From assembly GCA_018819305.1 (NCBI GenBank), contig JAHJQO010000043.1, forward strand, positions 1 to 45,490: a DNA stretch of 45,490 bases, in the 5' to 3' direction. Origin of the DNA: Nanobdellota archaeon (GTDB lineage Archaea > Nanobdellota > Nanobdellia > Woesearchaeales > SM23-78). Below are positions 8,679 through 27,371 of the stretch, piece by piece (position 1 is the stretch's first letter; each line of letters opens with the position of its first letter). The notes under the pieces were generated by a model that did no database searches, was not told the origin of the DNA, and worked only from the letters and a program-made list of their open reading frames with translations. The position numbers and the translations under genes are program-made.

Positions 8679-9395
8679 CTACTTTTTATCTTTATCGTCT
8701 TTCTTCTTCACAGGATCAGGCTTAACATCATAATCAGAACGGAACGGCTCCTTAACCGCATACTCACTAATAATTTTATCTAATCCGGTTTTCGGTAGAG
8801 CTCCTTTATTCTCATAATGAGTTCTTAGCAACTTAACAGCATCTCTAACAGTGAGCAACTTCTTTTCAACCATGTCACCAACACCAGTATGTTTAATAAT
8901 ATCATCAATATTATCTTTTGTGAAATGAGCCATGGAAGCAGCAGATAGCTGTTTTTTCAAATCATCCATCATCTCGTCTTTATGACGGAAAAAATTCGTA
9001 TAAGTGAAATTTTCCTGATAGTGATGAATTAAGTCTCCAATCTGCTGACTTGTCGTATTAGCATAAGCTTTCATCAACCTTTCTTTTTTGAAAACATCAA
9101 GTTTCTTATCATCAGAAAGCTTTTCACCGGGCTTTTTAAAACCAAAATGCTCCAAAGATCTGTCTAAATAGAAATCAGACATAGAATTTTTAAGAGCCAG
9201 CTGCCTTTCCTCTTTTTTCAGCCAATCATAGTTAATCAAACCGTCCTTATCAGTTAAAACGTCAGCAATACTAGTTTCATAAGCAGCCCTATGATGATGG
9301 TCAGCAGTATCTATAAGTTTTTTCTCCTTCTCCATATTCTTATGATACTCAGTAATATGTTTAGGAGGAACATACTCAGCCTTATCCTTAGCCAT
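8679..9395 (-). CDS. Unknown soluble protein, paralogue of the next gene downstream
   Basis: Unknown family, 238 aa, helical and highly charged, with a Lys/Asp-rich C-terminal tail. It matches the 213-aa neighbour in order of motifs: DHHHRAAYE near residue 32, GLINYDWLK, KLDVFKKER, IGDLIHHYQENFTY, then LLTVRDAVKLLRTHYE and GLDKIISEYAVKEPF near the end. A TTTATATA element about 28 nt before the ATG suggests a leaderless message, unlike its paralogue, which has a strong ribosome binding site. Separate promoters suggest that the pair are not simply one operon. Confidence 0.6.
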   Translation of the reverse strand: MAKDKAEYVPPKHITEYHKNMEKEKKLIDTADHHHRAAYETSIADVLTDKDGLINYDWLKKEERQLALKNSMSDFYLDRSLEHFGFKKPGEKLSDDKKLDVFKKERLMKAYANTTSQQIGDLIHHYQENFTYTNFFRHKDEMMDDLKKQLSAASMAHFTKDNIDDIIKHTGVGDMVEKKLLTVRDAVKLLRTHYENKGALPKTGLDKIISEYAVKEPFRSDYDVKPDPVKKKDDKDKK

Positions 9396-26676: not shown

Positions 26677-27006
26677 ATGGACATAGATAATGAGAAAATA
26701 TATCTAGAACTTCTTAAAATAAAAAAACTTATGCAGCAGAGTCTTGATTTACAGAGAGAGCTCACTACAATTGGAGAAGAAATCAAGATATTTGAAGGCA
26801 GGCAGGCCCAAGATGAACACAAGATTGCAGAAGCAATAAAGAAAAAGAAATTCAGAACAATCCTTGACTGGAAAAGAGCCATCTGGGACTCATGCAGTGC
26901 AAAGAATGAGCATGTAAATCCTTCTACAATAACTTTTTTCTGCAGAATACTAAACGCCCCGTGCAGATTTGAAACCTGCCCAAAGAATATTTTTGATGAA
27001 GATTAA
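26677..27006 (+). CDS. Small coiled-coil protein with Cys-rich C-terminus
   Basis: A 109-aa protein. Residues 3-55 form a coiled coil (LLKIKKLMQQSLDLQRELTT). The rest has four cysteines spaced C...C...C....C in SCSAK, FFCRIL, APCRFETCP, which might bind a metal. GAGGTGGGAA is a strong ribosome binding site before the ATG. Unknown family. Confidence 0.5.
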   Translation: MDIDNEKIYLELLKIKKLMQQSLDLQRELTTIGEEIKIFEGRQAQDEHKIAEAIKKKKFRTILDWKRAIWDSCSAKNEHVNPSTITFFCRILNAPCRFETCPKNIFDED

Positions 27007-27046
27007 CCCTAAAGTCTTATTCTAACATCATTCTAAAGAAAAACAC

Positions 27047-27053
27047 TTATAAA
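27047..27053 (+). promoter_or_regulatory. TATA box of the tRNA-Leu locus
   Basis: TTATAAA is centred 30 nt before the first of two copies of the tRNA 5' end at 27080, so transcription should begin at that first copy rather than at the tRNA proper. Confidence 0.6.
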
Positions 27054-27075
27054 CAATAACTTGTTCTATTCATAT

Positions 27076-27162
27076 CAATGCGGGGGTGCCGGCAAACAAA
27101 AATCAAAACAAGATTTTTGAGCCGACACTGAGCATAAACAAAAACCAATGCGGGGGTGCCGG
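27076..27162 (+). repeat. 17-bp duplication of the tRNA-Leu 5' end with hairpin between
   Basis: The 17 bp at 27076-27092 (CAATG, GCGGGGGTGCCGG overlapping) recur exactly at 27146-27162, 70 bp further on. Between them, CAAAAATC (27096-27103) pairs with GATTTTTG (27112-27119). The flanking GTGCCGGC and GCCGACAC extend the stem with one mismatch. It could be a duplication, an insertion that duplicated its target, or an intron in the D-arm. Confidence 0.7.
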
Positions 27163-27346
27163 AGTCTGGAAAACGGGCAGGACTTAAGCCTCTATGAGGA
27201 AGAAATCCTGTGGCTTAGTGCCTACGAGGGTTCAAAACAGATTTTTAGGAAAAATCTGGTAAAAACTAATTAAGTACGACACAAGCAAAGCTTGGTCGTA
27301 CGAATTGCCAAAAACCTAAAAGTTTGGGAAATTCCCTTCCCTCGCA
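27150..27346 (+). tRNA. tRNA-Leu (anticodon TAA), interrupted at the anticodon and T-loops
   Basis: Class II cloverleaf. Acceptor GCGGGGG (27150-27156) pairs with CCCTCGC (27339-27345) with one G-T pair; A73 is at 27346. The anticodon stem CAGGA/TCCTG encloses CTTAAG, a hairpin segment (CCTC-TAT-GAGG) and AAGAAA. Removing 16 nt gives a normal seven-base loop with anticodon TAA. The long variable arm of leucine tRNAs is present (27211-27225). T-stem GAGGG (27226-27230) pairs with CCCTT (27334-27338), but the T-loop contains about 96 extra nucleotides. Seven Ts directly follow the 3' end, as expected of a terminator. Whether the T-loop insertion is spliced, or the gene is dead, is not shown. 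Confidence 0.75.
27238..27301 (+). repeat. Two strong stem-loops inside the T-loop insertion
   Basis: CAGATTTTT (27238-27246) and AAAAATCTG (27250-27258) form a perfect 9-bp stem with a 3-nt loop. GTACGAC plus CAAGC (27274-27286) pair with GCTTG plus GTCGTAC (27290-27301) around an AAA loop, with one bulged A. The structure is likely stable in the transcript. Confidence 0.75.
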
Positions 27347-27371
27347 TTTTTTTATTTAAAATAGAAAAAAA
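27347..27371 (+). terminator. T-run after tRNA-Leu
   Basis: TTTTTTTATTT immediately follows the discriminator base, a typical archaeal termination signal. Confidence 0.55.

Follow-up and report, generated by a model that had tools for sequence, protein, structure and literature searches.

A tRNA-Leu(UAA) gene of a Woesearchaeales archaeon with a predicted bulge–helix–bulge intron in its T-loop, and the family of small structured elements to which that intron belongs

Introduction

Archaeal tRNA genes are known to harbour non-canonical introns with bulge–helix–bulge (BHB) junctions at positions 53/54, 56/57, 59/60 and others (PMC4090602, PMC4033280), and in the Thermoproteales such introns have been described as transposing between tRNAs (Fujishima 2010, doi 10.1093/molbev/msq111, as described in PMC4090602 and PMC4033280). 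In Caldiarchaeum subterraneum, a tRNA-Thr gene is disrupted by a 1.8-kb recombinase-encoding element, and a mobile-element origin has been proposed (PMC3293823), while group I introns occur in archaeal RNA genes, including those of Woesearchaeota (PMC6125680). The non-canonical intron models of tRNAscan-SE 2.0 were built from Crenarchaeota, Euryarchaeota and Thaumarchaeota (PMC8450103). Miniature elements of the MITE type and those derived from IS200/IS605 are short, palindromic, multicopy and non-coding, as are the elements discussed here.

The window studied – a 45,490-nucleotide stretch of contig JAHJQO010000043.1 from a Nanobdellota archaeon of the order Woesearchaeales – contains a tRNA-Leu(UAA) gene whose T-loop insertion shares with the non-canonical archaeal tRNA introns the 59/60 position, the 3-nt bulges, the EndA-type junctions and the presence of a 37/38 intron alongside, but differs from them in belonging to a T-loop-specific, two-hairpin sequence family of ~70–130 nt, with an alternative pairing of the 5′ arm and a DPANN host. 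As in the Thermoproteales, where the mechanism is likewise unknown, near-identical introns are found across tRNAs and the gain appears recent; unlike in the Thermoproteales, the family extends across a DPANN order, and related cores are found away from tRNAs as well, set between long direct repeats. The Caldiarchaeum case is similar in that tRNA fragments are repeated beside the insertion and an intron was gained along with it, yet its 1.8-kb element contrasts with a 68-nt core devoid of coding capacity and found at many unrelated targets. With archaeal group I introns the family shares its residence in archaeal RNA genes; it differs from them in having BHB junctions and no ribozyme similarity. 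From MITE and IS200/IS605 types it is set apart by the lack of co-occurrence with a Y1 transposase and by direct repeats of up to 62 bp; to our knowledge, target duplications of that length have not been recorded in either type.

Intron position, type of splicing and intron transposition are thus already known in archaea, namely from the Thermoproteales. We found no paper on this intron family, or on T-loop introns of Woesearchaeota, in the open-access literature (subscription papers lay outside the search), and as far as that literature shows, the element-like behaviour, the bistable fold and the occurrence in this lineage are likely to be undescribed.

A tRNA gene with two interruptions

Read base by base, positions 27150–27346 form a tRNA-Leu(UAA) with two insertions, one of 16 nt at position 37/38 and one of 96 nt in the T-loop (Table 1), and the cloverleaf closes only once both are taken out. 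Acceptor, anticodon and T stems are all present, as are a long variable arm and A73 (27346), directly followed by a T-run starting at 27347; the long variable arm and A73 fit the assignment to class II tRNA-Leu. An earlier note, made by a model that saw only the sequence, had described the gene in these terms, and this part of it held: the isotype, the 16-nt anticodon-loop intron, the 96-nt insertion, the pairing of acceptor and T-stem with one G·T each and the T-run immediately downstream are all confirmed by direct reading and position mapping. Standard tools do not see the gene, as both ARAGORN and Rfam miss it and find only the neighbouring tRNA-Thr.

The 37/38 intron forms a BHB with the central helix CTTA:GAAG (A·G at the inner pair) and the bulges AGC and AAA. 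Upstream of the gene lies a partial copy of the tRNA 5′ end, whose CAATGCGGGGGTGCCGG is identical over 17 nt to 27146–27162 (the tRNA 5′ end with its leader) at a distance of 70 bp, and which is followed by a strong hairpin (z = −5.8 for 27080–27140). The motif listed in Table 1 as a probable TATA box also stands ahead of the tRNA in congeners. At this locus the box precedes the partial copy of the tRNA 5′ end, and comparable upstream copies are found at the tRNA-Leu genes of G002, G003, G004 (two copies) and G006.

Table 1. Features of the tRNA-Leu(UAA) locus (coordinates within the window)
Feature	Position	Strand	Basis
Probable TATA box (CTTATAAAC)	27046..27054	+	Direct reading; ~27 bp ahead of the upstream partial copy
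Upstream partial copy of the tRNA 5′ end (CAATGCGGGGGTGCCGG), then strong hairpin and spacer	27076..27145	+	Folding, similarity
Acceptor stem 5′ strand GCGGGGG	27150..27156	+	7/7 pairs with 27339–27345, one G·T
Anticodon stem 5′ strand CAGGA	27178..27182	+	Partner TCCTG at 27206–27210
Anticodon TAA (Leu UUA codon)	27185..27187	+	Position mapping
Canonical 37/38 intron, 16 nt	27189..27204	+	Direct reading; same-site intron in 7 related tRNA-Leu(UAA) loci
T-stem 5′ strand GAGGG	27226..27230	+	Position mapping; 5/5 pairs with CCCTT at 27334–27338, one G·T
Exon side of T-loop BHB central helix, TTCA (positions 54–57)	27231..27234	+	Base 57 covaries with the intron 3′ tetramer
96-nt T-loop intron, position 59/60	27237..27332	+	R1 model match; 96% identical copy in tRNA-Ala
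5′ arm CAGATTTTTAGG	27238..27249	+	Can pair with 27250–27258 (hairpin 1) or 27315–27326 (inner BHB helix)
Internal arm AAAAATCTG (hairpin 1 partner), then GTAAAAA	27250..27258	+	Alignment, covariation
Hairpin 2, GTACGAC-A-CAAGC/GCTTG-GTCGTAC with bulged A	27274..27301	+	Family covariation
Terminal arm CCTAAAAGTTTG (inner BHB helix)	27315..27326	+	Covariation, MFE fold
Intron 3′ tetramer GGAA (central helix) and 3′ bulge ATT	27327..27333	+	Recurrence in other genomes
T-stem 3′ strand, acceptor 3′ strand and discriminator A73	27334..27346	+	Direct reading and mapping

The T-loop junction

The order of parts at the T-loop junction, from 5′ to 3′, is GAGGG, TTCA, bulge AAA, CAGATTTTTAGG ... CCTAAAAGTTTG, GGAA, bulge ATT and CCCTT – that is, a central helix TTCA:GGAA with 3-nt bulges AAA/ATT and a 12-bp inner helix, for which the 5′ arm pairs with the terminal arm in the MFE fold. 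Cutting after the second nucleotide of each 3-nt bulge takes out exactly the 96 nt from 27237 to 27332 and leaves TTCAAAT, which is also the T-loop of the intron-less orthologues in G002, G003 and G005. For the T-arm including the insertion, the folding energy is −38.0 kcal/mol, compared with −17.8 ± 2.9 in shuffles (z = −7.1), and in a search of its own genome the stretch 27226–27338 matches the family covariance model R1 with 107.5 bits (E 1.8e-22).

The earlier note had found no convincing BHB at this site and had called the insertion far larger than usual archaeal T-loop introns. Neither statement survives comparison with the family: a BHB is there, if slightly degenerate, and a length of ~70–130 nt is the norm among the Woesearchaeales relatives found. 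In the tRNA-Leu(UAA) copy the central helix consists of only three Watson–Crick pairs plus an A·G, with the 3-nt bulge geometry present, and we regard it as very likely that the junction is a BHB, a point largely settled by comparison, while splicing in the cell is inferred only. The A·G is probably no strong argument against function, because five of the seven related tRNA-Leu(UAA) loci have, in their 37/38 introns, a G facing A35, and because GGAA opposite TTCA recurs in two other genomes, in the tRNA-Glu of G002 (L054) and in G238 (L194).

Covariation across the family

Fifteen T-loop insertions, found by BLAST and a DNA pattern before any model was built, were aligned with MAFFT; the 3′ end of the tRNA-Leu(UAA) row is off by one column in this alignment, the other rows being unaffected. 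Exon base 57 faces the first base of the intron’s last tetramer as A–U in eight sequences, G–C in four, G–U in one and otherwise in two, the tRNA-Leu(UAA) copy being one of these unpaired two. The structure-wide covariation of the alignment was reached by none of 500 shuffles, and slid controls were all far lower; in hairpin 2, both sides change at 10 of the 12 pairs across the family.

The same pattern is seen in a set of 79 candidate T-loop introns, in which the exon/tetramer combinations TTCA/TGAA and TTCG/CGAA occur 30 times each and the crossed TTCA/CGAA once. All four central pairs form in 66 of the 79, against 3.3% expected at random intron positions, and the 3′ bulge is AGT in 59. Many of these candidates come from a model in which the covarying pair is built in, and the set lacks phylogenetic independence, but the first 15 sequences, which predate the model, give the same base-57 pattern. 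The simple T-loop-intron finder yields many false positives in AT-rich DNA; the 79 are a filtered subset in which a few remain (six with none or one of the central pairs). Because base 57 covaries with the 3′ tetramer, and because the inner helix covaries too, it is very likely that the T-loop insertion is a BHB intron selected for splicing – an inference from sequence alone, without RNA data.

The 5′ arm has two partners. Across 64 introns, it pairs with its own terminal arm at −11.2 kcal/mol versus −4.5 with swapped partners, and with its own internal arm at −7.1 versus −5.2 with the arms of others (0/5000 permutations in both cases), while no preference for the own partner is seen with the middle segment (1531/5000). 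The internal and terminal pairings are mutually exclusive, and 42 of the 64 introns are able to form both. This dual pairing might be a functional switch, or it might be the trace of growth from a one-hairpin intron like that of L066; both remain possible, and the choice is not decided.

Spread and recent gain

Similarity searches of the same genome reveal a 96% identical copy of the insertion in the T-loop of tRNA-Ala(GGC) and an 87% match in that of tRNA-Val, and related insertions are also present in its tRNA-Leu(GAG) and tRNA-Ile. In other genera, related copies reside in Leu, Ile, Glu, Gly, Ala and Val tRNAs. R1 detects the family in 126 of the 353 genomes of Woesearchaeales, and its matches in the rest of the phylum are few and weaker. 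Records with the same motif are mostly from Woesearchaeota, with some labelled Nanoarchaeota, Euryarchaeota or Aenigmatarchaeota, and the hairpin-1 pattern was not found in viral contigs.

The same tRNA in relatives, a comparison that the first reading had proposed, is without the insertion. Five congeners (G001, G003, G004, G005 and G006) have tRNA-Leu(UAA) beside an orthologue of the gene at 26677–27006 (tblastn E 6e-49 to 2e-34), and in all six congeners – these five and G002, whose neighbouring gene was unchecked – the 37/38 intron is present and the T-loop uninterrupted. Since the congeners’ genes lack the insertion and tRNA-Ala of the same genome holds a copy with 96% identity, the T-loop intron is very likely a recent arrival, again judging from sequence alone. 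Near-identical introns in different isotypes and empty orthologous sites are both criteria of transposed tRNA introns, and both are met.

Copies outside T-loops

Some R1 matches span only the part from hairpin 1 to hairpin 2. A second model restricted to this core (R2, 68 positions, cut-off E ≤ 1e-4) has matches in 62 of 338 genomes, and a single genome can hold as many as 13. Significant direct repeats flank 29 of the 59 copies without T-loop context (19 of these strong), against 2–4 of 59 significant and 0–1 strong in control windows shifted by 90–120 nt. The repeats are 13–62 bp long, and mostly stop 0–7 nt ahead of hairpin 1 to resume shortly past hairpin 2. The targets include tRNA 5′ ends, tRNA 3′ ends, where the element is in antisense orientation, and the beginnings of protein genes (L229, L240, L287 and L299). 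Where clear cases were examined, the copy downstream of the element is the intact gene and the one upstream is truncated. Repeats of 38–62 bp abut the copies at L226, L229, L240, L241, L279, L290, L297, L299, L305 and L306.

The arrangement of these copies resembles that left by insertion with a long target duplication. The step from a free element to a T-loop intron can only be inferred, because no such direct repeats were found around T-loop copies, and the way in which the element moves is likewise a matter of inference. One locus, L029 (G079), where direct reading shows a complete tRNA-Leu, then the element, then a second copy of the 3′ end starting in the T-loop, is suggestive of an intermediate, although no more than a possible one.

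Two candidate mobilisers were considered and rejected, as the presence of neither reverse transcriptase (RVT_1; odds ratio 1.24) nor Y1 transposase (Y1_Tnp; odds ratio 1.03) depends on whether a genome is R2-positive. This co-occurrence test is weak, and partners that act in trans or have since been lost are not excluded.

A bolder reading would make the T-loop introns the splice-out form of a new Woesearchaeales miniature mobile element: a module of 68 nt with two hairpins, which integrates next to tRNA ends and gene starts, generates target duplications of 13–62 bp and survives in essential tRNAs because its ends form a BHB with TTCR, a near-universal motif. In this reading the 5′ arm alternates between a hairpin, with the intron retained, and the BHB helix, with splicing as the outcome. 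Taken as one joint claim, it is compatible with the evidence but somewhat less likely than not.

Function of the gene

The explanation that we favour is that the tRNA-Leu(UAA) gene is functional and spliced, which is very likely even though splicing itself is inferred, without RNA data. The precursor would lose two BHB introns, in an order that can again only be inferred. In the T-loop, exon TTCA would pair with the last four paired bases of the intron and the 12-base 5′ arm with the terminal arm, thereby placing both junctions in 3-nt bulges, where EndA would cut and RtcB would join the ends to give TTCAAAT. The intron would have transposed recently and would belong to a family of small structured elements found throughout Woesearchaeales; it would suit the T-loop because TTCR occurs in nearly every tRNA.

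One EndA gene and one RtcB gene were found in the genome, and no second EndA subunit. The EndA resembles the catalytic subunit of N. equitans (best PDB match 3iey_A), and in alignment it appears to be without the loop tied to relaxed specificity (PMC6379350). Because that loop is seemingly absent and no second subunit was found, the tolerance of a degenerate BHB is uncertain.

The locus is likely to be the sole tRNA-Leu(UAA) gene of the genome. No other was found by similarity search, although only the stretches around matches were inspected and the assembly (1.53 Mb in 57 contigs) is 82% complete, such that one could be missing; the other Leu matches read from the sequences have the anticodons TAG, CAA and GAG. 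The 9-mer GGACTTAAG, tried as a probe for a second gene, proved unspecific, and the similarity search was used in its place.

Alternative explanations

The rival that survives best, albeit as a very unlikely one, is a pseudogene: a mobile element broke the tRNA, whose task falls to a second tRNA-Leu(UAA) or to wobble reading. In its favour, the insertion is recent, the 3′ junction is degenerate compared with the tRNA-Ala copy (GGAA in place of TGAA), the genome is incomplete, and it also contains orphan tRNA 3′ halves that bear insertions of this kind. Against it, all stems are intact, and neither T-stem nor acceptor has lost its pairing around the insertion; the similarity search brought up no other tRNA-Leu(UAA); and dozens of tRNAs and genomes tolerate such insertions with the splice geometry conserved. 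The earlier note had left open whether the gene works, and had held that a second intact tRNA-Leu(UAA), with no spliced RNA from this locus, would make it a pseudogene; none was found in the 82% complete assembly, and comparison largely settles the matter in favour of function, with splicing in the cell inferred only.

A self-splicing or other ribozyme insertion (group I, group II or a small ribozyme) is all but excluded. The secondary structure is indeed strong and conserved, but the ribozyme and intron families of Rfam 15 gave no match at E up to 10 beyond chance level (guide RNAs included), the length is only ~96 nt, and the junctions are of BHB type and covary with the exon. Hardly more can be said for a retained insertion, with the tRNA working with an enlarged T-arm: T-stem and acceptor are able to close around it, but the BHB covariation would be left unexplained. 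Retention would also cost the T-loop/D-loop contact. An assembly or binning artefact, for which the 57 contigs and 82% completeness might speak, is practically ruled out, since many independent genomes carry members of the family at the homologous positions of the T-loop, with model matches in 126 of 353.

Other loci of the genome and its relatives

Several further loci are worth recording in their own right. In tRNA-Lys(UUU) at L015 (G000:C46), Rfam aligns a variable-loop insertion that is better read as an 86-nt T-loop intron with a decoy T-arm. At L220 (G000:C29:73300-76800), an ORF of 253 aa for a LAGLIDADG_3 homing endonuclease (Pfam E 2e-12) is flanked on one side by a complete tRNA-Leu(CAA) and on the other by the orphan 3′ half of a different tRNA-Leu, which carries a variable-arm insertion and a T-loop intron of the same family. 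A second orphan 3′ half (T-arm and acceptor 3′ strand) with a family T-loop intron, at L222 (G000:C40:8000-10000, match 8833-8988), adjoins a LAGLIDADG-like ORF that seems, by eye, to be frameshifted; no 5′ half lies nearby, and the locus may be a split tRNA or a remnant.

Variable-arm insertions in tRNA-Leu genes are found at L084, L085, L087, L089 and L220, in several isoacceptors and congeners, and several of them share a second sequence family (ACAAGGC...GTCTTGGAGTA). Complete tRNAs at L006 (G000:C57:24099) and L032 (G092:C7) have, within ~100 nt downstream, another copy of their own T-arm or 3′ end around a different insert. At L075 (G037:C73), the CAGATTTTT...GATCTGG hairpin is also found inside an apparent anticodon-loop intron of another tRNA. 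The RtcB gene (L313, G000:C51) lies in a 985-aa frame with its domain split into two matches, as for an intein-like insertion.

Implications

As standard tRNA finders miss the tRNA-Leu(UAA) gene and misplace others, the tRNA sets of Woesearchaeales may be undercounted, which would also affect inferences on completeness and codon reading. The covariation between exon and intron offers a clean test of EndA requirements, and the conserved alternative pairing makes regulated tRNA splicing a possibility. The family also ties tRNA introns to small elements still present outside tRNAs, and a comparison of copies that have the terminal arm with copies that lack it makes it possible to test how archaeal tRNA introns move.
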